This document shows positions 1 through 38,124 of a DNA stretch of 64,000 nucleotides, piece by piece (position 1 is the first letter of the stretch; every line of letters starts with the position of its first letter). The notes under the pieces were generated by a model. It saw only the letters and a program-made list of their open reading frames with translations. It was not told the DNA's origin and did no database searches. A program made the position numbers and the translations under genes. This stretch comes from Trileptium ribeirensis (taxonomy: Eukaryota; Nematoda; Enoplea; Enoplida; Thoracostomopsidae), in the NCBI GenBank assembly GCA_030248225.1, contig JASANE010029356.1:1-64000 (forward strand), written 5' to 3'.

Positions 1-1144
1 AGACCCAAGAAGCTACGCAGCTTAGCAGGCCGCAGACGCGCTTCACGGGGTGTGTTCGGACCCCGCCCGAAAGGTTGCGCACGTGTCTAGTATCGGATAT
101 GATTCCTGAGGTCCCCCAGGGAGACTAGCACCGACACCTGCTCGCATGTCATGGAGCTTAGCCGCTATTCCCTATCTTAGACTCATCGGAAGTTGTTTAG
201 TTCTATTTTAGCGTAATAAGTGCTTGGTTAAAATATGAAGAAGTCCCTAGAAATTTGAAGCTCAAGTTGATTTACCTAGGAAAATCTTAGTGTGCTCCGT
301 TTTAGAGCATTGACCTATGTGGCCCCCACAGGGTTCCGACAGGCCCTGAACGTTTAATGTCGGATTATCAATGGCGTGGTATGCTCTTTTCAGTGATTTC
401 GTTGCGAGCGCGCTGGTACCTTGACCAGTGGAAGTTTAACTTATCTAAGTAGTGAGGATTCCTAACAAATTTTGGATTTTGGGTTGTAAACTAATAAAAT
501 TTTACTCGCCTTATCTGGCTATTTCAACAAAGCGTAAATAGATTTAACAGAAGGCCCTGCTCGCCAGTGCTTGTGACATTCTCGCCCACAAGCCATGACG
601 GGCAGTGCCCGCTCGTCTGAGCGGACAAACCAGAAAAGAAAGCTCCCTATCGTCTCGGTAAAAATAAGGCGGCACTCGGTGTGGCAAGATACAAAGTTTA
701 TTTACAAAGATCAAAGCTTATCGAAGGGACGAGTGTTCCTAAAAGCCTAGTAGTATCTTGCTGTGGTCGCTGCAATTCAACACAGTATGGCGGCACGAGA
801 CATGAAAAGAGAACACGGGAGGAGCGTGCAGATATTCGCCAAGTTGCGAACTAGGGGCGGTTATCCCTGCTTCGACTCAATGTTAGCGAACTACTCAGCT
901 ATGCAGCGCACTAAGCTGTGGCCCTAGAGTGCTTCAGGAATCGCTCCTAAACGCAGGTCGCTCTAGGCGACGACTATCTAGGCAGGCGGGGAAAAGGACA
1001 GTGGTTGAAACGGACTACGCGAATTCGACAGCCTCGTTGGAGCGCTACTCGAAACAATACCGACTACTGAGCTAAGCGGGGAACGCCTAACCGTTTATTC
1101 GTAGCACACACTGACGTTAGTACTTATGCGTAATTTCAGCCTAT
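1..1144. other. No gene recognised; left window edge
   Basis: Mixed-composition DNA with no ORF of convincing length on either strand and no RNA gene that I can recognise. It precedes repeat copy A and resembles it in texture. A short stretch near 240-300 weakly resembles 2345-2420 inside copy A, so it may be a more diverged part of the same repeat. I could not establish a boundary. Confidence 0.5.
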
Positions 1145-1587
1145 CGTGTTTGACGACCTTACCTACCTAACGGTACGATTGATCGAACGATGAGCTCCAG
1201 AAACAAAAGCAGGGAAAACGGGGGTAGTTGCTTAGATTTAGGCCGATGCAATGTGGTCGTGGCGCTACGTGGCATGATGCGTCGTCGTAGACTACCTGCG
1301 AGGTCGTTGGTCACGGTTTTGCTTTCTATTTGTTCTCCTTGGTGGGATGTTGGGGGCAGTCAACCTTTTGAAGCGGGGCTTTCCTGGCTGAGGGTTAAGT
1401 CAGCCTTGCTTCCTATCTTTTGAGGCCATTTGTTGTCAATCGAGATCGGGGCGATCGGCCCCTGACGCCTTTGCGTATTTTGTTTCCTACTTTGGTCGCT
1501 GGTCCTTTGCCTCTCTCTAACGACCATTTTTCTATTTCACCGCAATGTTGCAGTGTCTCAACTGGATTGTACTGCAGTTGAGTTATT

Positions 1588-1605
1588 ATCGACATAATAG
1601 TCGAT
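1588..1605. other. Conserved stem-loop in repeat copy A
   Basis: Inverted repeat ATCGAC-ATAATA-GTCGAT, a 6-bp stem with a 6-base loop. The same hairpin, extended to 9 bp, is in copy B at 22220-22243, in the same place just ahead of the tRNA-like block. Confidence 0.55.
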
Positions 1606-1616
1606 GTTCCTATACC

Positions 1617-1690
1617 TGCGTGACTGAGTGGTTAAGACTAATGAAACTGCAGCGGACTTAAATTCTCCATGCAGGATCAATTCACAGTAC
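1617..1690 (+). other. tRNA-like (Pol III box A/B) block in repeat copy A
   Basis: The stretch tgactgagtgg (1621-1631) fits the tRNA A-box consensus, and aggatcaattc (1673-1683) is a degraded B box about 50 bases on. Spacing and the gagtggttaag D-arm resemble class II (Ser/Leu) tRNAs. Acceptor and T stems do not pair, so it is not a functional tRNA. It is probably a tRNA-derived module or SINE head within the larger repeat. Copy B retains a better B box. Confidence 0.4.
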
Positions 1691-4600
1691 GGGAAAATGC
1701 AACTGGCTGATACTGAAACTATAGAAAAAGCGAAACGGGGCATACATAGTACACAGCCTAACGGGCACTCATGATAAATAGTGAAACTTGGCTAAACTCA
1801 GCGATCGACTCGCTCCAAAAAGAAAAAGGGGTTTTGCACTCGCCCGGTTTGGGGCCGAAATGGCCCGGGCAAGGAGGTAAGTTTTCTTTATTTTCAGGAT
1901 GTCCTAAAATTTTGTTTGAAGGCGGGGACACAGAGCGTCTCTCCCGCAAAGTCGGCGTCTAGTGATGGCTCAGGGGGCAAGCCTTAATTCTAGCTCTTTT
2001 TGACAATGGCCTCGAGAGAAGACCATTGCGTAGTGCAATGGTGAACACCGATAAATTTAATTGTTTTAGCCACATAGTTATTTGGAGTCCGAACTGGTGT
2101 ATCACCACAAAACGATGCACCATCGTCCCAGGTCAATGTCGGCGAAATTTTGCCCAGCTGGGGGCGTGCTCCTCCAGTTCGTTTTTTGGTCAAGCGGGGC
2201 CAAGAGGACACCTAAAGGTACTCCGGTCAGTCGCCCTAATGAGATTAGTGTACAAATGAGATGCCTACGACTATTTGCTTTAGAGTCAGATTCAAGCAAC
2301 TATGCCGAGACGATTCCTAGATAACACTCCGTGAAAACAGCAAACACCTTAAGCTCAAGTTAGTGTGCCTAGAATTTGTTTATCTTTTAGGTTCCCAAGT
2401 TTTCTTAACTCACTAAAATAGAAGAAATTTTGAGGGCTTCCTAAAGCCCGACGGAGGCTAGTCCTCCATCCCTAAGCTGCGTTTCCGTCCAAGCTCAAAC
2501 ACGGCATGAGCGTTGAACGATCAACTAAGCTGCAAATTTGGAAACCAAAAACAACGAGCTGTTGAGTAAGTCCCGTTGTCAATAGAATGCACGTTCAAGA
2601 AAGTTTTACCGTGGTCGACTCAGGAATATTCGATAACCCTAACTCAAAAGCAGCAAATCATGTAAAACCTGGACAAGAAGCGTCCATTTTGTTGTGCCTT
2701 ACCTAAGACCACGGGGAATCAGAAGGACTTCGACTATTTGTCCTATGCTCTACAGCGATTCCATGCGATCCCTAGAACGCCTAGAACAGAACTCGACGCA
2801 GGAGGGTTGATCACGCAATCTAAACAGCGCAGCCAGGAAGGGTGCCCGAGCATCACTGTCAAACTACCCTAGAAGGAGAAGGTTCTTGTTACTATTAACT
2901 AATCCTCTACTCGGCGAACGGTCTGTCACTGTTACATGCTGGGAAACTAAACCCCATGCGCTCAACTCTCCTGACTTACAGTAGTTGATCCGGGACAGCT
3001 AATGCTAGTCCCATTCCGCAAGACCAAAGTGGTCCGCGCGGGTCCTTCGTCCGTCGAATCCAATCACAAACGAAAAGGAAAGCACCGAAAAGCGTTAAAC
3101 TGATAGCGAAAACAGAGAAACTGCGTCGGAGCCGGTCAGTAGAGTCGACCGAACTCCGCGCTGCCGAAGTCGAACTGATTCCAAGATTCGACGCGTTGGT
3201 CGTAACCTCAAAATTTTCGCCCGTAGTTAAGTATGGCGATTTTGTCGCCGTCCAATCGTTGGCGATTTCTTGACGCCCACTTTTTTTGGTTTTCTGTCCA
3301 GTGTCCAATTGGGGACACTTCCGGAAAATTGAATCTTGACGGCTATCGTAAACCGTCGATGTCCTTAAAGAGAGTCGGCTTCAATTAAATTTGCCGACAT
3401 CAAGTTTGAATCTTCCGAGTACTCGGAAGTTGACCATCTGTGATTTTTGTCCAAATTTTCCCAAGAAAAGTAAATTTTGAAGTCCCAACTTCCCGTCCTT
3501 ATCGCCGGATGTCCAGCGAAATTTGATCCTAAACTCACAAACGTTTGAACTATTTCCGGTCTTAGATTAACTTAAACTATTGCGAATACTTTCGGGTCAC
3601 GCAATTTCCTTCTCCCATCCCAATTAGCGTGACAATCTGCTCATGTTTTGGACTATTTGCTCTGCCCAGCCCATCCCGAGTCGGCAAACATCAACTCGGC
3701 CTTTGTTGTCCTCGACTTGCCGCCATTCTAATTAAGCTAAATTGAATTTGGAAAGTGACCCTAACTCGCGAGGACACCTTAGAATGTCAAGAGAAATCAA
3801 GCTAATTTCTAATTTTCATGCGAGTATGTCTGCTTCAAAGTCGCGCCGGGGGGGAACCGACGACGAGAGAACGCCCGTCCCGAGGTAAAAGACGGGTCAG
3901 ACCCTGCCGTACACCTAACTGGTCAGGCGCCCAGTTCCAGGGCCCCTAGAGTCCGCGGGAGGGCCCTAAAGTAGCCCCCCGTTCGTCCTATCCGTCCATG
4001 TCTTGTCCGTCCGTAAAACTCTAAAATTTAACAAATTTTAATGTACGATGTCCTCGTCCGTCCGTTTTTTTCTGTGTCCTGATGTATACATACATATATA
4101 TCTACAACTACTCATGGAAGACACACGAACACATATACAAACACACACAGCACACACTAGACATGTTGGCGTCCTGAGCGACAGAAAGGTCGCTCAGGAT
4201 AAACACAAACTCACAACACACCAACAACGATAACAACAAAGCGACAAAGAAGAAAACCGACCAGAAACGTCGGTTAGAGAGAGAACGAGGACAAAAGCGA
4301 AAAGACAGCGAGGACACGAGGCGGCAACGAAAGGGTGCGGGAAGGGTGGCGGGACAAGGGGAATCCAGTGGGAATTTCGAGGGGCTGGGGTTAGATTCGG
4401 TCCCAGGACGGAAAACGTGGTCCATCGGTACCAAACACAAGGGGGAAGGACGTAGTGGAGGGTCGGGACCCACGTCTGGGTTCCGATGTATATTAGTATG
4501 GGGAGTTTTAGCGGGCTCTCCTGCGTTAACGGTTGGGCGGAGCGACGCCCGCCGGGCATCGTTGGACTCACCGTCCAACGGAGATTTGAACGAGGGGTGA

Positions 4601-5272
4601 TATTGCTACTGGGGCGGCAGGAGTAAAAACGGTACTAAAATCGCGGCGATTAGAGAGAGTAATGGCTACGGTAGGGGCGCTTTCGTCAGCTGTCCTGGGT
4701 TAACGGGGCGGCGGACCGAGACCCGCCGGGTATTTTTGGAGGTGTCTCATCGAGACGAATCCAATGAGGGGCGGTTCGCCCATTTTAGGGTTGAGCGAAA
4801 AATCTCGATTAATCGGTGCCCATCAGCGGTTGACAACAGCTTGCTAGGCATCTTTGAATGACTACCGCGAGCCAGCAGGGGCTCGGACGGAAGTCCGGCA
4901 CATATCGCTGGATTCCACTAAACACGATGAACAAAACGAAGGGTTGCAGGCGCCGGTTCTGACGCGGGGTAGGGCAACGAGGGTGTCGGACAGTGTGGGC
5001 TTGCATTAGTTGCATGCTACTATGGGCTACGGAAACGAGGCGGTTTTACCTGAAAAAGTTGTCCACAGGGCACACACACACGCACAAGTAGATACGTTTA
5101 CATATTTCATATATGATATGTCTTAAATATATGGGGGTAATAGTTCGGGTTCCACGTTGACAATCCTACCTAGCGAAAGTAGCGACTGTCTACACGCGAA
5201 GTTCTGGCGTTGTCCGGGGCGGTTTTGGAAGTTTGGAAATGCCAAACGGTTCACTAACATGATACTACATTC

Positions 5273-5597
5273 TTTATACAAAACGGTATACGACATTTTT
5301 TATGCAAAACGGTATACAACATTTCTATGCAAAACGGTATACGACATTTTTTATACAAAACGGTATACAACATTTTTATACAAAACGGTATACGACGTTT
5401 TTATGCAAAACGGTATACGACATTTTTATACAAAACGGTAAACGACATTTTTATGCAAAACGGTATACGACTGTTTTATACAAAACGGTACACGGCATTT
5501 TTATATAAAACGGTACACGACATTTTTATACAAAACGGTATACGACATTTTTATACAAAACGGTACACGGCATTTTTATACAAAACGGTATACCACA
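5273..5597. repeat. 25-26 bp minisatellite at end of repeat copy A
   Basis: About a dozen tandem units of the form aaaacggtatacgacatttt, with variants (cggtacacggc, cggtatacaac). The apparent tandem peptides in all forward frames are a by-product of the repeat, not evidence of a gene. Confidence 0.9.
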
Positions 5598-8083
5598 AAA
5601 CGATTAGCTGATAAAAGCGGGATTTTTTTATACAAACAGCCATGTGCCAACGCCTCCCGATACGATTTTGAGTACGAAGGTCCTGAAATGCTCGTGACAG
5701 GGCCAAAGCTGCCTGTTACAATTACGCTCAATTCAATGTCAGTTACACATTTTACCACGAACGCGAACTCTAAAACAGAAGTCTTTTTGGCAGGCTGGGC
5801 ACACCATCTGGCCATTTCTTGGAGTTAAAAACAAAGACAACCCATCACGGGGAAACGACAATCTCGTAATTAGGTTTGGTTACTAAATTGTAACACGGAG
5901 TTATATTGTAAATTGAGACATGTTACCGGATGTCGCTCTGATCATAAAAATATTTCTACTTCTAAATAATCTAATTCGCTGTCTTATTCCACTATTCTTA
6001 TATACTGGTTCGGTTATTATTTAATTCCTAAGATACCAAGATTTTCATAAATAGCAATCACTTAGTTGAATAGCAAATGGGTATCCGTTGCTAGAGCGGT
6101 TTTAGGTGACGTGTAAATTTATGATAACCTTGACCCTGAGGTACAGAAGCCCTATATATACAAATTTTCATTCGTCAACATATAACGAATATTCGCCTCA
6201 CCACTACTTGCGGAATTAAGATAAAAGTACGGACCCTGAAAATTATAGCTCGGCCCGTCATATGTGTATTTCTTGGGCTTAGGGATTATATCCGAAAGCC
6301 TTCCTGTGTCGTAAACGACGAATCAGATAAGTTCGCGGGCAAGTCACTACCAAGGCAATGAATTACTCTGAGGTTGGCCGCAAAATTCACACGAACCTAA
6401 CCGTTATTTTATTGTTTAGCCTACTTAACTAATGCCTACGTTTTCTGCGTCCGAATTAATTTGTTACTGGAGTCATTTTGACTGAATGGGATTCCTCTGA
6501 ATAGCTCCGATGTGATAATTCTTGTGTCGGGATGAGGAAAGCCATTTAAGCTAACGAGACAGGCGTAAAAGAGATTCCAAATTCGTTTTGCCATATCCAT
6601 AGATTTCGTAAAAGTCTGTCAATTTTATCCCAGGTTTGTGGTTATACTCTAGCGCTATTGCGTTTCTGCAAATGGGATTATCATGTGTTAAGGCAGGGGC
6701 CAAAGGGTTTCATTTCCTAAGCCACTGTTTTAGGATTTAATGTCTCCGAGGCAACGTTGCCGCCTCGCAGGGTTATTCTTATCAGATTGTAAGCAAACCA
6801 AGACTGCCTTACGATTACAAGTCAACTGAATATGGCTTATAATACTAATTATCCTAAAGTTTGCTGCCATTTGCTGGTGTCACGTTAGATGAGCAATCGT
6901 GATACAACTACCTAATTAAACTTTAATTAACTACGAGTATGTATCTGCACGACTATCCTCCAGGGTTAACGGGCCTGCATAAAGCAACTCGATTTCCTCG
7001 ACTTCGGAAACCAGTCGCGTGAGCTACGATATTCACAGTTTTCGTATCCGTAGTCCATCATGAGCTACGTATTCACAGTATATTAGTATTCATTTGTAAC
7101 CCAAGTATACGATGAATACAACAATTTGGTTTACTAAATATTGCGCCAGCCTTTATCTCTAGAAATTTGCTGGGTTTGACAAGTATTTTCCATGTTTGAG
7201 GACCAGGTACGGTCCAATTCAAAATTGATTCGGCATGTCTGATTTAGCATCTTGTATGTTACCAAAATTTTGTTTTATAAAATTAACCCATTTTCAGTAA
7301 AATTTACCAAACTGAAAAATTTGATATTTCGCAGTTTACTGCACGAAATGTCGGAATCTCAGGCATCCGATAGAACCATGCTGCTTTGCATTCAGATGAC
7401 AACCAAACGACTTTGATAACGAGAGGCGGCAATGAGGGTAAACTAACAAGTAAAACTAGAGGAAACTACCAGCTTATAAATATCTATGTAGATGTATCTG
7501 CATCTGAGTCTATTAAATTTGTATCAAACATACAATGTCTGAGCGGCTTTAGCTCCGCTTGACTTTGAAACCCCTCCCTGTTTAGATATGCGGTTCGCTA
7601 TTGAAGTCAAATGGCCGTCCGTAAAAATTTCCGGCCGGGCGATGGATCAACTGCAAGACGCCGGGTCTATGGCTAGGTGACGGCAAATAGATGGCTGTCT
7701 GTCAAGAAGCTTGTCTTACTACGCACGATATGAATTTAATATTCGTCAATGCTTCTTCAGCATTTGGTCAAAACACGATTTGTATCTAAAAGTTTTAATA
7801 GGCGTACTATAGCAAGCTCTGAATCTATGCCAAGGCTGACTAAAGAAAGACTGCACTATATATATTGCGGGGAGACTGCCAGCTTTGAGGTTCATCATTA
7901 AATGTTGGCGTATAGCTTAATCATAGACGCATATTTTATATGTTTAAATAAGACAATGTCATACTATACGATACAAAATTCTTGCATTTCGGTAATAAAG
8001 GGTTATATATGCATCAGAAAGTTTCAGTAGTGTGGCTTATAATTCATTTGCTCTACAATAGAAGCGTATAAACCACAGCGGGT

Positions 8084-19800: not shown

Positions 19801-21769
19801 TTTAGTCTAACAAGATTACCACAACAGCGTACAGTGCGTAAAACCTGAGTAAATTTTAGATTCCGCGGAAGAATGACCTAATACTATTTCAAATGCATCG
19901 TGATGTTAATTAAGGCATATCGTTTTCTTAATGCAATTGGCCAATTTTGTGACTGTGAGGGTCTGAAAGTTACCAGTGTTCCATGTTATCAGCATTCCAA
20001 CTACACTAGAGTTGCTGGGTCTACCCAATACCTAGACCACCTGTGGTTAGCATCATTTTGTACAACTAGCACTTACCTAAAGTCGAGATTCCCTGATGCA
20101 ATATTTACGAGTACTTAGAGTGTGTGCATGGCTACAATCGACATCACAATAGGGTACATTCAAACGATGCCAATTTTTGCGTGGCCTGGGAGCATCCCAG
20201 CCTATTAAACCTAAACCATGTGCTTCACTCGCTTATGAGCCTACCGAATTCACAATATTCAAGATTCATTCTAGTTAACGATGCTTGATATTCCTATAAG
20301 TGGATCTCCTAAGAATCAGCGTTCATTGTGATACTCACCTAGCCATTCCCTGGGTCATGAGCTAGGCATCTTACAAAATTGGCTAGACAAGAAGGCATGT
20401 ATTCTGTTAAATTGCAATCCAAAGCTCAATATTCCACCTGCTCGTTCATGACAAACCATACCCGTTAGTTAAAGTTTCATTTGAGTTCGTGATCGATTAC
20501 ACTATGTCACTGCTTTATGGTGATAAATTCAAAGGTTAGAAGACGTACTGGGTGAATTACGATCACAATTCTAATCCTCACTCCTGGTGCAATTTTAGAA
20601 ACACTGCACTATGAGCATTGGCCATCCACCAGAAACAATCTTTTTCATGCCTCACAAACAGATACTTGTGGCACTTCCTACAGCATATTTGTTGCAAAAA
20701 AATTGATTTATACCTTGGTATTATCGATTACCAAGGCAATTGGCTCACTGACCTTCCGCGTAAGCCCAACAAAGAGGCTTTCCTGTCCTTACCATTTTGA
20801 GCATAAGGGCATACATGTCTAAGTACTTCCAGAGCTACGCCCCCGGTGGAGGCGAATTTGTTTTACTTGTGGCACCCTAGTACGTGATGGGTCTTAACTT
20901 TTGGCAGTTTTAATAATTTCCAGACAAAGGTTTAGCTCTTATATTTTTCAGAATATCCGGAGGGGCATTCGTCCGATCAACAGTGCTACCACAACTATGA
21001 TACAAAGTCAGTTCAGATCTCTATCCCCATGGGCGTTTTTCTGTCACATTTGCTTGTTTATTTTCAGATGGTCATGAATAGTTATGCAGAAGCTAATAGG
21101 CACGTGGACGAGTTCTGTTCCCTACCTTTCAACTCCGGATGGGGCAACTGTTCGACCAAAAACGACACGGCCATGATAGTCCAAGCTGGGTCAAACATAC
21201 GTCCCCAAAGGGGGCGTTTTGTGTTGAATCAGCTGACCTATTTTGCAATGGCTATAGTACCAAATGACGCTAATTTTCTGAAATATCCACTTCTTCAATT
21301 TACCCGGAAAGTTAGGAGGGGCATCCCTCCGATCTACGTAACAGTAGTTATGGACTCCCTGGGTTTGTGGAAAAATGCATGTTTTCACCGGGGACGAACT
21401 TGCGCCAAAAGTGCGGAGAAGCATGCCTCCGACGCCGACCTCCAGCATAGGCTCAAGACGAAGTCGGGACAAAATTGTGTTTCTCATTCAAATTGTAACT
21501 GTTTCTACTAATTTATACCCCTAGTAAATTCACTCCTAACCTAACTATGACAACTTACAACCATAAATATCTTATGAACCGGCAGGTAGGACCCGAAATG
21601 TTCGACCCGATGATGTTTTCTGGGTTTTCTACCATCTTCGTCTTGTAAACGATATCCCCTTATTCGACAGTGTTATTGCTCGTGTAGCTATGTCAGCAGT
21701 GCAGTTTTCCACTGCTTCCGGTGACTTCGAACGCTCGTATTTTTGATATTTCACTTGGGTTCATTATAT
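16898..21769. other. Region without recognised genes
   Basis: No convincing genes. The longest frames are 126 codons on the minus strand (19037-19417) and 160 codons on the plus strand (21029-21511). Neither contains a motif I recognise, and I see no supporting splice sites or homologous neighbour. The texture of 18800-21500 (mixed composition, many ctag and gcctag words) resembles the long repeat's surroundings, so some of it may be old repeat. Confidence 0.45.
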
Positions 21770-22219
21770 TGTAACTAGCGACTTTGCCTACCTAGCAGTA
21801 CGACTGACCGAAAGGGAAGCTAGAGAAGAAGGGGGTAGAATAATTCATCGGATTCAGGCCGGTGGGACGCGGTCGTGGTGCTAAATGGCACGATACGTCC
21901 GGCTGGCAATTTACGGGGCCGCCCCCAGGGGCGAACCCAGTTACCTAACATTTATTTGTTTCTTCTGCCGTCATTCTCATAGGGGCACAGTGAGGGCACG
22001 TTTTTGGGGTCATACATACCTTGCCGGACGGTCGTTCGGTTTCATTTCCTAGCCCAGGGGTCGTTCTGAGCGGACGGGCATGGGGCGGTCTGCCCCGGAC
22101 GCGTCTACGTCTTTTCTTTTCTTGTTGGGTGTTTTCTCGTTGCCTCTCCTTATCGGAGGTATTTTTCTCGTACACTGCATTGTTGCAGTGTCTGAACTGC
22201 ACTGTAGCGCATTTGTGTT

Positions 22220-22243
22220 AACATCGACATAATAGTCGATGTT
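22220..22243. other. Conserved stem-loop in repeat copy B
   Basis: Perfect 9-bp inverted repeat AACATCGAC/GTCGATGTT around the loop ATAATA. The core stem and loop are identical in copy A despite heavy divergence around them. Confidence 0.6.
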
Positions 22244-22251
22244 ACCATGTG

Positions 22252-22325
22252 CGTGTGGCTGAATGGTTAACACACAGGATTCTGCAGCGGGCTTAATTTC
22301 CCCGTGCAGGATCGAATCTTCTATA
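22252..22325 (+). other. tRNA-like (Pol III box A/B) block in repeat copy B
   Basis: The A-box match is tggctgaatgg (22256-22266) and the B-box match is ggatcgaatct (22309-22319), about 43 bases apart. The stem pairing of a real tRNA is missing. Same position relative to the hairpin as in copy A. Confidence 0.45.
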
Positions 22326-25300
22326 GGGCAAAACGGAGCGAGACACTAAATAAAACTAAATCAGGGCCGTACACAGTATATAGCCTAACGGGCAACTCAG
22401 GATAAATGGTGAAATCTGGCTAAACTCAGCGATCAACTCGCTTCAAAAGAAAACGAGTTTTGCACACGCTCAGTTTGGGGCCTAAATGGCCGAGGCGAGT
22501 CCGCTAGTTTTCTTTATTGGGGCGGGAATAAATGTTTTCTATTTTCGGCGGCGGGAGCACAAAAGGTTTCTATCGCAAGGTCACTAACTAATTATGGCGC
22601 AAGGTCCTGTGATTAGTTAATTTAACGATGTTTGTTTTTGGACACTGGTCTAAAGAGAAGACCATGTCATTGTACAATGGTGAACACCGGCAAACTTGAT
22701 TGTTTTGTAAAAGTAGTCTTTTGGGGCTCGAAACTGTGTATCACTACCAAACGGAGCGTTCGCGGCACCAAACGGTGTCGACGGAATTTTGAACGGCTGG
22801 TGGGCTTGTTCCTCCAGCTTCTTTTTTGGTCATACTGGGGTCAGGACAGTCATCTAGTATTTCTCCGGTCAGTCATCCTAATGAAGTTTGCGTTCGAATG
22901 AGATGCCTACCAGATTCATTTAAACGCCCTAAAACCAGGGTCAAGCAATCAAACCGAGACGATCCCTAAAGAGTATTTCGCCTAAACAGCAAACACCTTA
23001 ATCTCAAGCTTCAATGCCTAGAATTTGTTCAGTCTTTTGTGTCCCCAAATTTTCTTAGCTCAGTAGAATAGAAGAAATTTTAAGGGCTTCCTAAAGCCCG
23101 ACGGGGGCTAGTCCTCCGTCCCTAATCTGCGTTTCTGTTCAAGCCCAAACACGGCATGAGCATTAAACAATCAACTAAACTGTAAATTTGTAAACCATAA
23201 CAGCGAACCATTGAACAAGTCAGCAAGTCCCTATAGTTTCGTTTGGAAATTTTACCGTGGTCGGCTCAAGGAAAATTCAACAGCCCTAACTCAAGAGTGG
23301 CAAGTCATGTACAATCTGGACGAGAGGTGTCATTTTGGTGTGCCCTACCTAAGACCACGGGGAATCAGAAAGACTTCGAATTGGTTGGTTAGTCCTCACA
23401 GTGCTCTGTGCGCGTGTTCCGTAATTCGCCTAATACCTCCTGCATCGGAACTTGACATAAGAGATTGATTCCAGATAAGGTTGTGCGTAGCATTTCTGTG
23501 GGGGCTGGGTGGGTTAGAACCCGGACGAGAGTGTTTTTACCTATGTGCGAGGGGCGTGCTACATTCAAAAGGTACCTAAACGAACGGCCTGTTACTTTTC
23601 GATTGGCAGGGAAACTAAACCTCTGCAATCACCAAACCTTCCTCATACTTACGAACGTTGATCTTTGGGGCAACAATCGCTGAACCCCCTTCGCGATGTA
23701 TGTACCTGCGCGGAAATCTTTTGTCCATCGAGTTGATCCGAAGCAAAAGCGAAAAGCGAAAAACCAGAGCTACATGAAAACTATGAACACAAAATAATGC
23801 GTCGGAGCCGGTCAGTAAAGTCGACCGAACTCCGCGCTGTCGAAGTCTAACTGATTCCAAGAATCGACGCGTTGGTCGTAAACTCGGAATTTTCGCCTTT
23901 AGTTAAGGATGGCGATTTTGTCGCCGTCCAATCGTTGGCGATTTCTTGACGCCCACTTCTTTGGGTCTTCGTTCAGTGTCCAATTGGGGACAGTTCCGGA
24001 AAATTCAAATTTGACAGCTACCGTAAGCCGTCGATGTCCTTAGGGAGAATCGGCTTCGATCAAATTTGCTGACATCAAGTTTGAACCTTCCGAGTAGTCG
24101 GAGATCGACCATCTGCGACTGTTACCCCGATTTTCTCATGAAATCCAAACTCTGAAGTCCCAATTTCCCGTAATTATCGCCGGATGTTCGGCGAAATCGG
24201 ATCCTAAACTTGCAACATTCAAACTGAACCACTAATTATGACTTTCGGGTCACGCAATTTCCTTCTTCAACCCCAATTAGCGAGACAATCTGCTCATCTT
24301 TCGACTGTTTGTTCTTCCCAGCCCAGCTCAACTCACTCGACAGCGATCGACTCAGCCTTTGTGGTTTTCGCCATGCCGCCCTCCTAATTAAGCTGACTTG
24401 GAAGATGACCCTCGCTCGTTAGGACATCTTAAAACATCAAGAAAAACCAAGCTTATTTGAAATTTTCATGCGACTACATAAGCTTAAATGTCTTGCCGGG
24501 GTTAACCGACGACGGGAATACGTCCGTCTCAAGGCAAGAGGCAGAGCAGACCCTAACGAATTCCACACCGGTCTGGGGCCCTGCTCCAAGGCCACTAGAG
24601 CCCGCGGGAGGGCCCTAAAGACCCCCCGTTCGTCCTAATCGTCCGTATCCAGTACGTCCGTAAAACTCTTAAATTTTAGCTCGTTTAGTATGTCGTGTTC
24701 TTGTCTGTCCGATGGTGTTTCTGTCCTTAAGCATATATATACATACATATTAATATAATATATATAAACATATATGTCTACACACAAATATATATACAAA
24801 CACGCGCTACACACATTAGACATGGTGGCGTCCTGAGCGACAGAAAGGTCGCTCAGGATAAACACATACTCACAACACACCAACAACAACAACAAAAGCG
24901 GCCTACCAAAAACGTCGGTTAGAGACAGAACGAGGACAAGAAAACAAAAGTACAGCGAGGACACGAAGACGGCGTGGGAAGGGAAGCAGGACAAGGGGAA
25001 TCCCGGGGGATTTTCAAGGGGTTGGGGTAATATTCGGTCCCAGAACGAAGAGTGGAGTCGATCGGTACCAAACATGAGGGGGGAGGCGTATCATTGGGTC
25101 GGGACCCACAACTGGGTCCGGACATATATAAATGTAAGGGTTTTTAGCAGGATCTCCCGCCTTAACGGTTGGGCGGAGCGACGCCCACCGGGCATCGTTG
25201 GGCTCGCCATCAGTTGGCGATTCGAATGAGGGGTGATATCCCTGTCGGAGCGGCAGGAGTTAGAAGAGTATTAAAATCATAGCATTTAGGGAGAGAGACG

Positions 25301-26389
25301 ACAATGGTGGGGGTGCTTTCATCGGCTGTCCCGGGTTAACGGGGCGACGAGCGGTGACCCGTCGGGTATTTTTGGAGACGTCTCGACGAGGCGAACCCAA
25401 TGTGGAGCGGTTCGCACGTTTTAAAATTGAGAGGAAAATCTCAGATTATCTGTGCCCACGAATAGTTGGCAGCAGAAATTTAGACACATTTGAGTGACTA
25501 CGGCGGGTCAGCGGAGATTCGGACGGGGTCCGGCGCGCGCCGTTGGATTTGCGAAGCCACGGTGAACAAAATGAGGGGTCGCATGCGCTGGTTCAGGAAT
25601 GGGGTGGGGCAACGAGATTGCAGCGGGCGGGTGAGTCGTGTCAAGGCATGGTACGGCTGAATAGTAGGGCGAAAGGCCAGTTTGCCTGAAATAGGCACAC
25701 GGAGAGATGATCCGATCGATGGGGGTGAAAGGTATAGAGCCTGGTAGGCACACATCATCATCCATAAATACCTATAGATTTATATTTGCACATATGTAAT
25801 AATATACGTAAAGGTGGCAGACCGGGTCTTTTTTTGTGACCACCTAACTTAGCGTAAGTAGCGGTGATCGTGTCACGTTATGAGCGTGATCTTGAATTCG
25901 TCCGGGGCAATATGATCCCTAGCTAAAGTCCTTCACATATTCTACCGAAGTACTCCGGCCATTTCCGGATCATTACACTTCAGACGGGTGCGGGCCATTA
26001 AATTAACCCAGTATCCGTCGTTCTTAATAACTCTGCAAATTTCCTGCCGTACTCGAAATCTGAGCTGACCACGGTTTATTGTTTTGGAAGACCGCTGCTT
26101 AATATACAGCTAGAACTAGGTAAATTTAATATTTTCCATTTCTATTTCTATAAACTTGTTAATTTGGACGTGCAGCCGGGGGCCTCCTATTGCTGGACGG
26201 TCCTAACAGTCAAAGTTACAACGTGCGATGACGACTCCTTAGGTTCTGCGTGCTTTTTTATCGGTACGGGGGCCAGGTTCAGTGTTAACAATCAATCGAA
26301 ACGGCGTAGTTTTCCCTAATTCATTCGAAGCGTAACACTCGTCCCGGTAAAATTTGGCAAGCAAAGCAATATAAAACGAACCACTGATA

Positions 26390-26890
26390 ATGTACTGTAT
26401 AATGTACAACACTTTTATGAAACGGGCCACGTATAATATACGGTATAGTTTACAACATTTTATAAAAACGAACCACGGATAATATACGGTATAGTTTACA
26501 ACGTTTAATATGACAAACCACGGATAATATACAGTATGGTTTACAACATTTCATAAAACGAACCACGGATGATATACGGTATAATTTACATTTTTTGAAA
26601 AACGAACCACGGATGATATACGGTATAATTTACAGCATTTTTATTTTTTATAAACCGAACCACGGATGATATACGGTATAGTTTACAACATTTTGTAAAA
26701 ACGAACCACGGATAATATACGGTATAGTTTACAACGTCTTATACGACGAACCACGGATAATATGCGGTATGGTTTACAACATTTTATAAAACGAACCACG
26801 GATGATATACGGTATAATTTACAACATTTTTATAAAACGAACCACGGATGGTATACGGTGCAATTTACAACAATTTTATAAAACGAAGCT
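26390..26890. repeat. 45-47 bp minisatellite in repeat copy B
   Basis: About eleven tandem units built from cgaaccacggataatatacg followed by gtatagtttacaacatttta, with unit-to-unit variation. It occupies the same place in the repeat as the 25-bp array of copy A. Both share the words cggtat, aacat and tttata, which suggests divergent amplification of related seed sequence. Confidence 0.9.
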
Positions 26891-27020
26891 CGAACAATAT
26901 ACACCTTATTTTGTCATAACTGAGATACAGGTGCCAACGTGGTTCTGTGCGATTTTGGCGCTGGAGTCATGCAAACGCTCGTAACGGAGCCGGAACGGTC
27001 CTGTTGCATCTCTTATATTT

Positions 27021-27700
27021 TTAAATGGAAATTTTCGGACTTAGTTATACGGGTTGCAAGTAAATTTTCACCTGCACATTTTCCACCTGCCTGAGATCTG
27101 TTCTTGATGAACTAGCCTATACCGGGGTCTCGTCACTTAAGGCCCTTCTAAAAATAACTCAGCTAGTGGTGGCAGAGCGGGTGGCAGAACGCCATCGCTG
27201 CTTGGTGATTTTGTTGTCTATTATTTGAAGCTGAACACGTAATTTACTTGCTAGGGCTCGGCCTGGTCATACTAGATTGTCAATGTATTGCCTGTGAATT
27301 ACCAGTGACTACAAAGCGGTTTATTCTGTCCGGATCCTCGTCGGACGAACCCTGTAGGTCCATCCAAGTCCTCCTCCTATTTTTTAAAAGGGGAAAAGGA
27401 CTTTTCGCATGGGGTTGGAGGATTCACCTGCTTTAGTGTGATAATTTTGCTGTATTGTGCGTGAATAACTGAGCACCCGCTATGTGATAAAATAATACAA
27501 AGATATCAACGCGTAAACACAGCATAATATGGTACATGAAATAATATTTGCAAACGCGGATAATCAACATAGTCCTGTGACACTCCCAACAGCGGAGTTC
27601 TTGAGCCACCCTAGATTGTCCTTCGGTGGAGTGTCTTCACTAATCCTCCATAACCGAAAATTGCAAATTTGGCCCAGTTTTGGTTAAGCAAGCTCCCTCG
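27021..27700. other. No gene recognised
   Basis: Lies between repeat copy B and the NADAR/SGNH relic. There are short ORFs only (62 codons at 27248-27436) and I see no structure of note. Confidence 0.4.
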
Positions 27701-28288
27701 TTACGACGTTTGTCGTTCCACCCACTTGCGAATGAAACCAACATATGGTTCCGTTACTTGAGTTTCCGCGGGTGGGTTATCGCTGGGACCCGTTTCCCAT
27801 GCATCTGGTTCCAATAGTTCTGGTGGGTACTGGGGCATCACGGATTTCTTTGCCCTGTTCGGAAATTGACACTTAATGTCGTGAAACAGATGAGTGAATT
27901 CCTTGGTCTATGCGCTTACATCGTCCTGTCCAATGTCCCAAGATGGTGGAGGTGGTGCGATGACAGCTACAGCTCCATCGCTCAATAGGTAGTTCAGTGA
28001 GCAGATATGCTGTCGTACACGTCGCATAAATTTGCTTGGGGTGTCTTGGAGGCGACCTTCATGCGGCTTGCATCTCAATGCGGCCTAGTATCCGCCAAGT
28101 ATGATGACAGTCTTGGTTTGGGGCGTGGCAATACATGTCGCCATCCGAACCAGAAACTGCATGGTGGCTCCAGGCCAGGCCTCAGCGAACCAACCCTTCG
28201 ATGCAACCATTTTAACTAATGGCGTCGCCATTGCATCGCCCAGGATAAGTACTGTTGGCTAGTTGGTAACTCCGTGGCGAATGAATGT
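27701..28288 (-). pseudogene. SGNH/GDSL-like hydrolase domain, decayed
   Basis: Read on the minus strand in the same frame as the NADAR C-terminus just upstream. After two in-frame stops comes PTVLILGDAMATPL, which matches SGNH block I (ILGDS...) with the catalytic Ser replaced by Ala. Next is a block like WPGAT, then KTVIILGGY, the position where block III normally has G-x-N, here Tyr and followed by a TAG. Frame continues through SLNYLLSDGAVAVIAPPP, another TAG, and FTHLFHDIKCQFPNRAKKS to a final TAA at 27701-27703. One long reading frame with four internal stops and lost key residues is a decayed gene. SGNH hydrolases are esterases or acyl-hydrolases; activity is not expected here. I place the fold from block I and the VIILGG strand, with moderate certainty. 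Confidence 0.55.
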
Positions 28289-28834
28289 TCAGATCTCCTC
28301 AAGGATATGACCCATGACGTTGTAGCACTGCCGTGGGCTTCGACCAAAGGCGATGTTCTCTGGTCCGAGGCCGATTCCCCAGAACGAATCTGTGCGATTT
28401 GCCTCGAGCAATTGCGCTTGACCGGTGGAGAGCAAAACATTTCGGAATTTCGGGAGTTTAAATTTTTCGAGGAGCACCGTTTGCATGAGGTGTGGTAGGA
28501 CTGGGCGGAGGCGCTTCGTTGTTTCGGAATCGAGGAATTTTGATTTGTTTCTTCGGGAGATAGCTTTGACGTCTCGAGATCCCATTTTAGGTCGGATATA
28601 TCTTGCCTTGCTTGCTCGTCGTCGAATAAATAGGTGACGAGAAGCTGGTATCCCTGGTCCGTTGAGGCGTATTCGATTGGGTACTGTTTGATTGTTTGGT
28701 CCAACGGCGCCATATTGGATAATTCGGGCCATCATGTGCCTTTCGAGAGGAAGGTTTCGATGGGGGCGGCGTAGTTGATGGTGTAATACGGCACGCGCGA
28801 TTGAGAAATTTGCTACATTTTGTTGATTTGTCAA
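28289..28834 (-). pseudogene. NADAR (YbiA-like) domain, frameshifted
   Basis: The C-terminal half is clear. It reads FRNVLLSTGQAQLLEANRTD then SFWGIGLG, the signature LL.TG...L.EA...D.FWGIG of the NADAR/YbiA family, followed by NVMGHILEEI. The N-terminal half lies upstream in a different frame (about 28550-28793): ELSNMAP (compare the family's xFSNF-P start), a YASTDQGYQLL stretch where the family has a conserved S.E..YQ, and LFDDEQARQDI. A frameshift near 28540-28560 and an in-frame TGA near 28729 break the domain. Members act on ADP-ribose and riboflavin-related N-glycosidic bonds; some remove ADP-ribose from nucleic-acid guanine. The frame runs on into the SGNH-like region through a TGA, so the two were probably one protein. 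Confidence 0.7.
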
Positions 28835-29075
28835 TCGATGATTCCAGCAATAATATTCGTCGTCATTAGTGGCGGTTCTTGAGAGATGGTCGGATCGGGA
28901 GCTCGAGTTCTCAAGACATTTTAAGGTGATGTCTGCATTACAACCGTCTTCCTCGAAGCGGTTGTCTGGGAGGTTGGACGGCCTCCAATCCCAGGTCTTC
29001 AGGTCGTAGTTGTCGTTGTCCGTTGTCTTCGTCCGGCTCCAAGTCAGGATGCGCGGCTAACATGTCTTCGATGTC
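28835..29075 (-). pseudogene. Linker between Arg/Pro-rich ORF and NADAR relic
   Basis: On the minus strand, reading continues past the stop of the Arg/Pro-rich ORF as DIEDMLAAHPDLEPDEDN, an acidic run, and then shifts frame toward the NADAR N-terminus. This suggests that the Arg/Pro-rich region, acidic linker, NADAR and SGNH domains once formed one polyprotein. Inference from frame continuity only. Confidence 0.3.
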
Positions 29076-29700
29076 CTAGTCGTCAAATATGTTCCTAAAA
29101 GGCTCGAACATATCGTGCCGAGCACGAGCACTACCAGACGGGGGATTCATAGGCATAACGGGGTCGAGTTGTCGGGTCGGTTGGGCGAGGGGTACTGTTC
29201 GTCGAGCTGGGGCTGGGGGTTGGGGTGCAGGCTCTCGGGGGGCAATCCGCTGTATTACTACCCGAGCTTCAGCTCCATGTGGTATATAGTCTTCATACAC
29301 TCGACGGCGGCCCCTAGCCTGACGATGTGGTTGTCGTCGAGTTGTTTGAGTAGGTTCTGTCTTCTCTTTGATCTCCTCAATAGAAGGTCCCATCTCCCTA
29401 GATACCTCAATTTCCTCAGTATAATGGTCAAGTTCAAAGCGAGGTCTTCGACTAGGTTCCGGTAAGAGTTGGCTAAGGGGTGTTTCGTCTTCCCAATCCT
29501 CCAAACTAACACGTGGTTGAGCTTTAGCTGGGGTTCGGGCACGTGCTTTGATGCGCGCGGGTCGAGCTAGGGTCCCTGTTATGGCGGAGGGTGCGCTGCG
29601 TGGGGGCGCCTTCTCCCTCCCCCGAATAGAGGAGCCTTTGGTTGACTCGCCTATGGTTGAGGTTGTCTCGCTGGCCGCTGGTGCGGATCTTGTTCGGGGT
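29076..29700 (-). CDS. Arg/Pro-rich low-complexity ORF
   Basis: Open on the minus strand from a TAA near 29700; the first ATG is at 29504 (142 codons from there). It has an N-terminal basic/Ser stretch, then LEDWEDETPLSQLLPEPSRR, a glutamate-rich segment, an Arg-rich segment (RQPHRQARGRRR), a Pro/Ala-rich segment and the C-terminal FEPFRNIFDD. No catalytic motif. Composition and position ahead of the NADAR/SGNH relic resemble a gag-like or nucleic-acid-binding leader of a mobile element. It may equally be spurious in this GC-rich DNA. The preceding ORF (29706-30173) ends almost where this frame opens, so a single base shift could join them. Confidence 0.35.
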
Positions 29701-29705
29701 CGTTT

Positions 29706-30173
29706 TTATCTACCGCCCTCCGAAGATTTGGTGGGTCGGCGTGGCTTACTCTTGTCTCGTTCACTCGTCTCACGTCTCCTAGCCAAACTTTCAACAAATT
29801 CTGCATCGGCGGCTATCTGGGCCTCCGAGGGAGGGTGTTGTACGATAGGTCCTGATAGATATTCCATTAACTCGGTTGCGTCCTGAAGTTCTCCTCGAGC
29901 ACGGGCCTCTTTCTGCTTAATCCTTCTCCTTTCGTCCAATGCCCATTCCCATTCCGCTTGTTGGTTTTGTCTCCTAGTGGTCCATCGACCGAAGGAAGGA
30001 ACATATGGGGTACCGGTTTCGTGTTGCACTAGGGGTGACAATGCGACAGGGGTTATCCATTCGTGGGGGGGGGCGGGGGCCAAAGTTTCGGGGGGGGGGA
30101 CATCGGCGCCGCGTGTCGCGAGGGGGGGGAAAAGGGGGGGAAAAACCACGGGGGGGGGGGGGAGGGGGAACAA
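29706..30173 (-). CDS. Pro-rich then charged helical ORF, function unknown
   Basis: 155 codons. Its first third is Pro-rich because it reads through the poly-G/poly-C tract, which makes the start doubtful. The remainder is more protein-like: WEWALDERRRIKQKEARARG, then an acidic/amphipathic segment and a basic tail ending KPRRPTKSSEGG. Predicted mainly helical by composition; no family recognised. It lies in the same orientation as the piggyBac ORF and the NADAR/SGNH relic. Confidence 0.3.
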   Translation of the reverse strand: MFPLPPPPVVFPPLFPPLATRGADVPPPETLAPAPPHEWITPVALSPLVQHETGTPYVPSFGRWTTRRQNQQAEWEWALDERRRIKQKEARARGELQDATELMEYLSGPIVQHPPSEAQIAADAEFVESLARRRETSERDKSKPRRPTKSSEGGR

Positions 30174-30431
30174 CGTTCGGGGCGGTGTGCTCTCTGAGCT
30201 ACGCGAGATACTGGATCACTCGCAGGTGCGGGGGTTTCAACAGGCGGGCTCTGGGGGGGGTTACGGGCTCGCGTCTCGCGCCGAGGGGGCCAAAACGACT
30301 GGGGTATGGTGTGGGGGGTGGGCGGGGGCGGGGGGGGGGAGCATGCGCTCCTGGCGTGCTCGCGACTCCCCAAACGGCCAAACGGGGGGGGCGGGGGCGG
30401 GAGGGGGGGAGGGGGAGGGGGGGGGGGGTTA
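30061..30431. repeat. Poly-G-rich low-complexity tract (G-quadruplex-prone)
   Basis: Dozens of runs of four or more G on the plus strand, including several runs of 9-12 G at about 30092, 30151 and 30418, separated by short linkers. The density meets the usual G-quadruplex pattern many times over. Long mononucleotide runs are also where assemblies are least reliable, so lengths should be treated with caution. Confidence 0.85.
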
Positions 30432-30467
30432 TCAAAAGATATTTTTGTAGCACAACAAAAGTGATGT

Positions 30468-30473
30468 ACTCAC
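30468..30473 (-). other. Splice donor at 3' end of piggyBac ORF
   Basis: The minus-strand reading is GTGAGT immediately after ...SKT and the first bases of a Trp codon. The apparent stop TGA is formed by the donor itself. A conserved aromatic continuation is expected here in piggyBac proteins, so the ORF may be an exon rather than a full CDS. I could not find the next exon. Confidence 0.5.
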
Positions 30474-31978
30474 CAAGTCTTGGAACGCAGATGAATAGCG
30501 TAGAGCGAAATAAGCATGTCCGATTTGTCGACTCCACCCATGTGCGAATTGTACGGTGCTAACAACGCGGGGCACCTGATTCCCTTTTTGCCGACTTCTA
30601 TTTTGGTCCTGATGAATCTTTGGACAGTTGATTGAGGTTCGACACCGATGTAATTTGATCCAAAGATGACACGACGGTTATCATACCATTGGACAACGGC
30701 GACATTCTTGCGGACGTCCGTGAAGACTTCGACAGCGCCGCGACCTCGCTTTGCCAAGTCTTTCTCAGATGAAAGCGGGCAGCGCTTAGTACGATTGGAT
30801 CGCATCGTACATACCGCCCAAAACTTTCGCTGGGTGAGTTCTACTAACAAATCATACGATGCGAAGAAATTGTCAAAATATACTTTTGTGTTGGGGACAC
30901 AATGTTTGAGCATTTTCAGAACAACTTCAGCGCCAAGACCGTACTTGGAATCGTCTGAGCTATTATCGACGAGGGCTCCTGGCGATGACTTGGTCGACTG
31001 TGAGCGGCGGCTTTGACGCCTGGTTGGTGGATTTGCTTTTGCTGGAGAGCATTTACCCTGATAGACTTCGAAATCGTATATATATCCAGATGATCCAGCA
31101 CGGGCCCACACCTTATAGCCATATTTTATTGGCTTGTTCGGCATATACTGCTTTATTGAGTGTTTGCCTGAGAATTTGATCATCATTTCGTCAACACTCA
31201 TGTATTCCTCCTGGTGGACAGCGGACAGAAAGGCTGCTCTGATGAATTCGAGTAACGGCCGGATTTTGAATAATTTGTCGAAGTTTGGATCAGTTTTTGC
31301 GGGCATCAAATCGTCGTTGTTGAAATGAATGGCACGAAGAATTTGTGTGAACCGATTACGGGCCATCGTATCGGCAACATTACTGACACGTGTAGAACCA
31401 CTCCAATACATCTGAACCTGAGGAAGACGAACTAGAGATGTATAAATAATAATTCCAATGAAAGCTCGACACTCGGCAATTGTTATGGGTCTTATGGCAA
31501 GCTGCTTTCGAGTAATGTTGTAGTTGGACTCGTTGACGATATATTCGAACACCTGATCTGAAAAAACGACGTCGAAGTAGCGAATGAACGGCGCGTTCTG
31601 ATCAATTGCGTGAACCAGCCCAAATTGCCCGTCAAACTCGATGTCGATTGGGTCAATGTCGGCTAACTGCCAGTCAGGATTTATTGGTTTGATCGCAACT
31701 TCTCGGGATTTTTGTGGCACCAAATGTGAGAGTGGCGTGTCGTCAGAGCTGTCGTCTTGCTCGGGCTGAGCTGTTGAAATTGGATCGTAATCATCCTCAG
31801 AGCTTGCTGAATATTCGTAGCTGTCGTCATAATCCGTTTCACTCATGCTATTATCGCTTGACTCAATATCGGACATTTCAAAGTCATCTTCTTCATCACT
31901 GTCTTCTAAGCCGGGAACCGCAATTTTTGTCTTGCGTCGAGAATTTTTTTCTCGGACACTTTTGAAAATTGTAGACAT
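30470..31978 (-). CDS. piggyBac-family transposase, C-terminus missing
   Basis: 502 codons, DDE_Tnp_1_7 type. The N-terminus is acidic and low-complexity (residues 24-82), as usual in the family. The catalytic Asp triad is visible: D263 in MSVDEMMIKFSGKH, D369 in KVYFDNFFASYDLL and D484 in HMGGVDKSDMLISLY. A basic Ser/Arg-rich insert (about 310-345) separates the first two, as in other members. The protein stops at RSKTW, where homologues continue with a further helical stretch and a C-terminal Cys-rich zinc-binding domain. The cause could be an intron donor at 30468-30473 or truncation by the G-rich tract. The enzyme would excise and insert DNA at TTAA sites. Start ATG at 31976-31978 fits the acidic N-terminus. 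No internal stop or frameshift, so loss of function is not proven. Confidence 0.9.
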   Translation of the reverse strand: MSTIFKSVREKNSRRKTKIAVPGLEDSDEEDDFEMSDIESSDNSMSETDYDDSYEYSASSEDDYDPISTAQPEQDDSSDDTPLSHLVPQKSREVAIKPINPDWQLADIDPIDIEFDGQFGLVHAIDQNAPFIRYFDVVFSDQVFEYIVNESNYNITRKQLAIRPITIAECRAFIGIIIYTSLVRLPQVQMYWSGSTRVSNVADTMARNRFTQILRAIHFNNDDLMPAKTDPNFDKLFKIRPLLEFIRAAFLSAVHQEEYMSVDEMMIKFSGKHSIKQYMPNKPIKYGYKVWARAGSSGYIYDFEVYQGKCSPAKANPPTRRQSRRSQSTKSSPGALVDNSSDDSKYGLGAEVVLKMLKHCVPNTKVYFDNFFASYDLLVELTQRKFWAVCTMRSNRTKRCPLSSEKDLAKRGRGAVEVFTDVRKNVAVVQWYDNRRVIFGSNYIGVEPQSTVQRFIRTKIEVGKKGIRCPALLAPYNSHMGGVDKSDMLISLYAIHLRSKTW

Positions 31979-32096
31979 TTTGTATCACTCTTAGCAGTTT
32001 AATTATAAAACCTGAAACATAGAAAGTAAATTAGATAATACCCTGTAAACATTTATCAGAATCTATCAAACTGTCATTTAATTATAGCAAATAGCT

Positions 32097-32235
32097 TTGT
32101 TTACCACTGTACAACATGTTGTACATGAACAAAACCATATTTTGTCTCATGTTTTACCAATGTACAACACATTGTACTTCAAATTTTTTGATTGTACAAC
32201 TCGTTGTGTATTGGTAAACAAAGCCATTTGCGGTC
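32097..32235. repeat. piggyBac subterminal palindromic repeats
   Basis: Three related motifs lie 5' of the transposase ORF: tgtacaacatgttgtaca (perfect palindrome, about 32106), atgtacaacacattgtac (about 32159) and ttgtacaactcgttgtg (about 32191). A fourth, ccaatgtgttgtacatt, is next to the element end (about 32498). Repeated subterminal motifs of this kind often bind the transposase. Confidence 0.55.
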
Positions 32236-32489
32236 ATAACTGTTGGGTCTACAAGTCGGAAACTGGACTGCAAACATTAACTTGATCACTTCACCTTGTC
32301 TTGAGTTATGGCTCAATACTATTCTCCCGGCCAGGATAGAAAAATTCTTATGCGTTGAAGGGGTCAAAATGTTAACTATCGGATACACAGTCTTATAAAC
32401 AGCATAAAATAAGCCTTAAATCGCGTAGTTTGCGTAAAGATTGACAAGGTAGTAAACCAACACGCCTCTAGGAGACTGTAGACGAAGCT

Positions 32490-32530
32490 TGAATGTCCAA
32501 TGTGTTGTACATTGGTAAATAAAGGGTTAA
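32490..32530. mobile_element. piggyBac element end with TTAA target
   Basis: On the minus strand the end reads TTAA-CCCTTTATTTACCAATG, starting at 32530. TTAA followed by CCC is the usual piggyBac terminus, and it sits about 0.5 kb upstream of the transposase start. I did not find the matching opposite end within the window, so the element is truncated or disrupted on its 3' side, near the G-rich tract or beyond. Confidence 0.6.
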
Positions 32531-32531
32531 T

Positions 32532-32818
32532 ACAGTTTTTGTAGCAGACTTCTAGATGTGGCATAGCTGCTGTAAGAGTGTTTGTAAAAGTGACACAGTT
32601 TCTGTAATAGTATTTTCCAAAAGTGACATTGTTTCTGGAGCGGGTTTTTTATAAGTGACACAGTATCGGCAGCAGTTTTTCAAATAGGGACATAGTGTCT
32701 GTAGCAGTTTTTCTAAAAGTGACACAGTTTCGATAGAAGTTTTTCTGAAAGTCTACAGTTTCTGTAGTGGTTTTTTTCTAAAAATGACACAGTTTCTGTA
32801 GCAGCTTTTCAAAAATTT
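32532..32818. repeat. Minisatellite, about 38 bp unit
   Basis: Seven to eight diverged units of gtgacacagtttctgtagca followed by gtttttctaaaa. It abuts the piggyBac terminus at the TTAA. Confidence 0.8.
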
Positions 32819-35500: not shown

Positions 35501-35509
35501 GGGAGTAAC

Positions 35510-37500: not shown

Positions 37501-37562
37501 GTAACATAGTGGAGATTACGTGTTGGTGGGGTGAAATCTTCAGAACGTAGTGACGCTCGCGA

Positions 37563-38000: not shown

Positions 38001-38124
38001 TATTTTGCTGTTTGTGATAATTTTTTCATGCAGTACGATACGATGATAACTTACTGTCCGTGGCAATCCATGGACTCAAGGGACGAACGCCAGTAAAGAT
38101 CAAACTGGTGTGGCCCCAACCAGG

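Follow-up and report, generated by a model that had tools for sequence, protein, structure and literature searches.

Relation to described systems

Most of what is known about NADAR enzymes comes from bacterial antitoxins and phage genes, and little has been established about what they do in animals. In retroelements, the available text of PMC12477816 places a YbiA-family NADAR domain in the pol gene of an Ectocarpus Gypsy lineage, and another in open reading frame 1 (ORF1) of a Tx1 long interspersed nuclear element (LINE) of Crassostrea gigas. Here we analyzed a 64,000-nucleotide stretch of DNA from the nematode Trileptium ribeirensis (contig JASANE010029356.1; hereafter, the window), which carries on its minus strand a decayed gene, ORF2, with a NADAR domain followed by an SGNH-fold-like domain. 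The locus is very probably what is left of one copy, decayed and truncated at its 5' end, of an abundant Ty3/Gypsy-type long terminal repeat (LTR) retrotransposon of about 30 kb, in which ORF2 is a captured gene.

As in Ectocarpus, the carrier is a Ty3/Gypsy element with a NADAR domain, but here this domain lies in a separate gene behind pol and is fused to an SGNH-like domain; SGNH, GDSL and esterase are not mentioned in the main text of PMC12477816. The C. gigas Tx1 protein is likewise an accessory protein of an animal retroelement, although it belongs to a non-LTR element and occupies the ORF1 position, and the available text states no SGNH domain for it. On the SGNH side, the bdelloid LTR retrotransposons and Terminons with a GDSL/SGNH ORF3 share the env-position SGNH ORF; they belong to bdelloid lineages, however, and no NADAR is mentioned in the text available for them, which also describes Athena-L derivatives that have no SGNH catalytic residues (PMC5408684). 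The ORF1 proteins of CR1, L2, RTEX and Penelope elements also place an SGNH esterase in a retroelement accessory protein, but theirs is in a non-LTR ORF1, is catalytic and is accompanied by a coiled coil (PMC3905857, as far as its available text goes). Ngaro elements carry an SGNH ORF too, whereas they are of another class and the accessible part of PMC9210276 mentions no NADAR. DarT-NADAR antitoxins and YbiA share with ORF2 the conserved Glu, Asp and Trp, but the Lys that is described as essential in the Escherichia coli C7 NADAR (PMC11543638, available text) is Val in all 24 open copies analyzed here. No report of NADAR and SGNH together was found in the literature searched, where PMC12477816 was also the sole relevant paper to combine NADAR with Gypsy, and within that literature the fusion, its env-position gene and its lost textbook residues look new, while the component parts are of known kinds. 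An SGNH gene borne by a Helitron, again another element class, has reportedly been found.

The two domains form one gene in open copies

The two domains of ORF2 lie in the window as follows.

28292..28800, minus strand: NADAR domain of ORF2, decayed (Pfam PF08719, NCBIfam TIGR02464)
27704..28258, minus strand: SGNH-fold-like domain of ORF2, decayed (block order I-II-III, AlphaFold2 model)

The peptides by which a first-pass annotation had recognized these domains were found at their place and in their frame on the minus strand. As had been claimed, the SGNH-like part follows the NADAR part in the same frame through internal stops, at 28291, 28261 (just before the SGNH-like part), 28087 and 27910; a further stop lies in the NADAR N-terminal half at 28734, and the window NADAR contains a single frame change near 28590. 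The absence of an ATG between the NADAR end and the first SGNH strand of the window copy suggested that the two parts are continuous. Stop scarcity alone is a weak test of this: there are four stops in the 297 codons of the frame, and the fraction of shuffles doing as well in any of three frames was 0.074.

The question was decided by the copies in the window's own assembly (687,459,628 bases in 20,229 contigs), which was searched with the 365-residue read-through. The copy numbers are lower bounds, since 112 of 2864 first-look candidates were scored for the fusion, and 150 of 2317 for NADAR. All 112 scored places reach across both domains, and 85 do so without a stop (counted from the match table); identity to the read-through is 73-81%, compared with 99% for the window's own row, which covers residues 68-365. 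Because every scored place spans both domains and 85 are stop-free, the fusion is one gene in the open copies. Thus, the proposed NADAR-SGNH fusion in an animal genome is borne out, and the search for intact relatives elsewhere in the genome, which the annotation had recommended, was successful.

The Arg/Pro-rich ORFs upstream, which the annotation had named as preceding the fusion, are not part of the fusion protein; they turned out to belong to a separate gene, as the C-terminal tail of pol. At loci L014-L018, ORF2 comes after a long Arg/Pro-rich stretch that is read in a different frame and terminates in PPRGRRL, and in nine of 24 copies the ORF1 stop lies 121-127 nt from the conserved ORF2 Met; in the other 15, a shorter, different frame ends nearer, so that the distance was left unmeasured. 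We had considered a single protein with an Arg/Pro-rich N-terminus, and dropped this idea since other copies show two genes. At locus L062 (copy C13730), a single open frame runs through the ORF1 tail and ORF2 over 1113 codons of the fetched stretch, and a joint product is therefore possible in that copy.

Relatives outside this genome were sought at the protein level. The read-through gave no match among proteins of about 340-1083 residues (E ≤ 1) or of about 200-640 residues (E ≤ 10), and no relative was found in viral and prokaryote contigs. When five phage NADARs were added to the query, 4086 of 7997 scored proteins fell at E ≤ 0.01. Six proteins from the best 120 were looked up, and none of the five that were scanned (P0028 was left out) had a Pfam SGNH match; two Haliotis proteins of 460 and 452 residues (P0005 and P0011) have two NADAR domains each and no SGNH match. 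In phages, 243 records were obtained at E ≤ 10, none of which covered 80% of the read-through; in the 15 rows listed, the matching region is NADAR, and one of them extends to residue 202.

The carrier is a giant Gypsy-type retrotransposon

We then read the flanks of other copies. In copy C2050, ORF1 encodes protease, reverse transcriptase (RT), RNase H and integrase (H2C2 and rve) in one 3262-residue piece, with a CCHC knuckle in the preceding part. The order RT, RNase H, integrase was also found in C8194, and both C8194 and C16630 carry the same gag-pol gene in broken pieces. ORF1 is 4742 codons long in C2050 (over two adjacent pieces, the joining codon not being a stop) and 4735 codons in C19537. 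Ten-kilobase flanks identified the Arg/Pro-rich frame as the long tail of gag-pol ORF1 after the integrase. By this domain order, the element is classified as a Ty3/Gypsy-type LTR retrotransposon.

The copy in C19537 has LTRs at 32297-38585 and 56006-62517, is 30,221 bp long, ends in TG...CA and has the inner polypurine tract (PPT) AAATATAAGAGA. Between the same end motifs, the 3' LTRs of C2050, C1564 and C16630 measure 6,650, 6,478 and 6,215 bp, and the 5' LTR of C8194 measures 2,741 bp; overall, five of six measured LTRs are 6.2-6.7 kb long and one is 2.7 kb. The genome contains 394 exact matches to the 21-base PPT-LTR junction, compared with none for a reversed control. In the one copy examined for a target-site duplication (C19537), the flanks differ and none was found; an old or rearranged copy can lose this duplication. 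The two LTRs of C19537 (L028, L038 and L039) are nearly identical over several hundred bases at the 3' end and 76-86% alike in other parts, for which recombination, conversion or mosaic copies are candidate explanations.

ORF2 sits behind pol, in the env position, which is where retroviruses keep env. In the copies read, intact ORF2 genes lie inside elements with TG...CA LTRs and a PPT, and this location in LTR-bounded Gypsy elements supports the suggestion of an accessory protein captured by a mobile element. The corresponding parts of the window copy, and its neighbors, are as follows.

28944..30073, minus strand: C-terminal Arg/Pro-rich tail of gag-pol ORF1, decayed (ORF1 of other copies terminates in this tail as well)
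27009..27020, minus strand: PPT adjoining the 3' LTR (AAATATAAGAGA immediately precedes the LTR in this copy and in others)
21759..27008, minus strand: 3' LTR of the window copy (starts at 27008 and runs to about 21759; lower end not recovered)
1..5720, minus strand: another LTR of this family, incomplete because the window begins inside it (blastn matches in the flanks of other copies)
30473..31984, minus strand: piggyBac transposase exon, an unrelated neighbor (Pfam DDE_Tnp_1_7, 4.4e-66; piggyBat 9c0f, 4.8e-29)

The feature first delimited as 27701..28834 is real, but the unit to which it belongs is wider, with the ORF1 tail up to 30073 and the 3' LTR from 27008 downwards. The ORF1 tail has stops at 29708 and 29078. 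BLASTN homology to five other copies ends at 30058-30073, from which we conclude that the window copy is 5'-truncated at about 30073; beyond this point there is a C-rich low-complexity tract and then the piggyBac exon. The window's own LTR start departs by substitutions from the 21-base junction of the other copies. A scan of 36 read-through pieces covering most of 20000-34002 (except the plus strand of 27403-32000 and parts of the minus strand) for remnants of RT or of further domains around the window copy matched only piggyBac, and no second NADAR was found within the window.

Residues of the two domains and selection

The minus-strand frame of 28292-29056 matched Pfam NADAR with an E-value of 5e-12 (profile positions 55-158 of 163). 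When the N-terminal half, which is in another frame from 28800, was read through, the match to PF08719 improved to 5.8e-17 (positions 11-160 of 163), over the curated cut-off; TIGR02464 gave 1.9e-14, below the cut-off of that model. The profile check suggested in the annotation thus succeeded for NADAR but returned no Pfam SGNH match for the C-terminal domain, either in the window read-through or in family members. Key NADAR residues were placed by alignment to 8bau and five phage NADARs, and their roles were taken from the available text of PMC11543638. The ribose-contacting Glu and the Glu-Asp-Trp active-site motif are kept in 24/24 open copies (the window copy itself has Asp in place of the first Glu), and the phosphate-contacting Lys is replaced by Val in all of them. 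According to the same text, this Lys is essential for guanine-ADP-ribose hydrolysis in the E. coli C7 NADAR and corresponds to K50 in an oomycete protein (PMC11543638). Therefore, we do not claim ordinary NADAR hydrolysis: as judged from its sequence, the domain belongs to the NADAR family, and we do not count it among the active guanosine-ADP-ribose hydrolases.

For the C-terminal domain, a search of all six frames for the SGNH block order I-II-III gave a single match in the window and none in 40 shuffles, by a pattern that was written after the sequence had been seen. A low-confidence AlphaFold2 single-sequence model had TesA/thioesterase I, platelet-activating factor (PAF) acetylhydrolase and GDSL-like lipases as its best-ranked structural matches, and a control frame gave no fold. 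Pfam OAS1_C matched weakly in 10 of 21 family members (best E 0.0018). The loss of the catalytic Ser to Ala, which had been noted in block I of the window copy, is not the state of the family: the 24 open copies have Asn (14), Ser (9) or His (1) at this position, and GDS is present in nine. The block II Gly (PGA) is kept in every open copy, and block III is invariably LGGY, with Tyr where SGNH proteins have Asn; a block V Asp-x-x-His was found nowhere in the domain in any of the 24. Since both the SGNH Asn and the Asp-x-x-His are missing throughout, we refer to the domain as SGNH-fold-like rather than as an SGNH hydrolase. Judging from these alignments, the loss of the NADAR Lys, the SGNH Asn and the Asp-x-x-His in all 24 copies argues against ordinary catalysis.

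Next, we calculated the ratio of nonsynonymous to synonymous substitution rates (dN/dS) among the 24 ORFs (276 possible pairs, excluding those with dS ≤ 0.05 or undefined). These were the ORFs that passed out of 32 ORF2 loci entered. Eight loci (L022, L042, L043, L047, L051, L052, L053 and L059) were dropped; the genome match table shows a stop only for L022, and the remaining seven were thus lost to an overly strict pattern. The median dN/dS was 0.06 for NADAR (274 pairs used) and 0.09 for the SGNH-like part (229), compared with 0.72 (247) for the stretch of this frame that lies upstream, outside the gene. Both domains have thus been kept, under strong purifying selection.

Possible role and alternative explanations

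How might such a protein serve the element? ORF2 would be made from a spliced or reinitiated mRNA, separately from pol. Its NADAR domain would recognize and bind, and perhaps remove, ADP-ribose-type adducts on element RNA, cDNA or partner proteins, and its SGNH-like domain, by analogy with other SGNH proteins without catalysis, would be a non-catalytic binding or scaffold module. The protein could then either assist the element's nucleoprotein as an accessory factor or act in counter-defence. The anti-defence or nucleic-acid modification role that had been put forward is plausible as a putative function, and the joining of the two domains hints that elements of this kind may interfere with the chemical marking of nucleic acids. 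A role linked to ADP-ribose, as a counter-defence or ribonucleoprotein (RNP) factor, is nevertheless a tentative proposal. More specifically, it is doubtful, though worth considering, that a protein whose domains have both drifted from textbook catalysis is kept under strong selection for reading or shielding nucleic acid that bears ADP-ribosyl marks. If this were true, nucleic-acid ADP-ribosylation would be an animal host defence against retroelements, with the NADAR-SGNH protein as its counter-measure.

We also considered the possibility that ORF2 replaces env, with the SGNH-like domain binding membranes or lipids and targeting particles or RNPs, and NADAR being secondary. The env position of the gene fits this idea, as do the SGNH domain of the ZfL2-1 ORF1, described as binding phospholipids with a turnover lower than most SGNH hydrolases (PMC3905857, available text), and the GDSL ORF3 carried by bdelloid LTR elements (PMC5408684, likewise). 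However, the constraint on NADAR is no weaker than that on the SGNH part (0.06 versus 0.09), so that NADAR is hardly a passenger, and we regard this explanation as unlikely. It is more improbable still that the C-terminal domain has another fold with a chance resemblance to SGNH, as might be argued from its low-confidence model, from the weak OAS1_C matches in 10 of 21 members and from the fact that no sequence library names it SGNH; the block order, the predicted strand-helix order and the top-ranked structural matches agree with an SGNH fold, and nine of the 24 copies have GDS in block I.

Two further explanations concern the origin of the window copy. NADAR is present in animal genes, such as SNA-3 (PMC9303266, in the text available), and in animal RNA viruses (PMC9503650, likewise), so that a pseudogene with no link to mobile elements, derived from a NADAR-SGNH gene of the host or from a virus, could be imagined. 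This is very improbable: 112 scored genome copies span both domains, those whose flanks were read sit in Gypsy elements with LTRs, and the window copy adjoins its own 3' LTR, which refutes a host or viral pseudogene for this copy. The gene is also on the same strand as the piggyBac exon and directly downstream of it, and this exon, which is open over 504 codons, has a TTTCAG acceptor-like site before its ATG and ends in a donor-like GTGAGT. The annotation had pointed to the adjacent transposase, and one might suspect that the gene is part of the piggyBac element or its downstream exon. However, homology to the five copies stops at about 30073, and in those copies it is gag-pol rather than a transposase that precedes the unit; the piggyBac link is refuted and we give it practically no weight. 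A motif search down to 15000 found no downstream piggyBac exon, and a looser Cys pattern gave a single match, at 24888, in a frame with stops.

The captured-gene origin of ORF2 in a Gypsy element thus remains our preferred explanation. This giant, abundant family, with a preserved NADAR and a second enzyme-like fold, offers many natural variants for testing the function of the pair.

Other mobile NADARs and minor features of the window

A NADAR search of the same genome gave 2317 candidates, and all 150 that were scored were over the cut-off. The best matches are stand-alone genes, different from the ORF2 fusion. Of the eight loci L006-L013, six have a packaging-ATPase-like (A32-like) frame beside NADAR, as does L063; the sequences of L011 and L012 begin too late to show one. 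Two loci were tested against Pfam Pox_A32, giving 1.3e-7 for L008 and 6e-6 for L009; in L009, a TBP-like gene (Pfam 1.1e-32) adjoins NADAR. Loci of the L006-L013 type resemble Polinton/Maverick elements. In a tree of 33 rows, the six Gypsy NADARs group together in a clade separate from the six Polinton-like NADARs; the branches are long and the sister of the Gypsy clade is unreliable. Capture of NADAR by two element classes with no relation to each other would suggest that mobile DNA in this host is under some common pressure, with ADP-ribosylation as the first candidate. In the doubtful scenario of a host defence by nucleic-acid ADP-ribosylation, the Polinton-like NADAR genes would separately also be a counter-measure.

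The LTR piece at 1..5720 is 69-83% identical to the flanks of other copies in pieces of more than 700 bases, and the match ends at 5720, where the LTRs begin; it is either a solo LTR or belongs, as 5' LTR, to a copy that lies outside the window. The two LTRs of this family in the window account for the direct repeat pair 1135-4981 and 21759-25616. Minisatellites with related units lie inside these LTRs, at 5262-5597 and 26324-26948, and arrays are also present in the LTRs of other copies. Finally, another SGNH-like stretch, which had no Pfam SGNH or PDB match, lies on the plus strand at 62951-63480; it contains LVLSDS and later DGIHVNPAGY in broken frames, and stands behind a BEL/Pao-type gag (DUF1759, 62033-62729).
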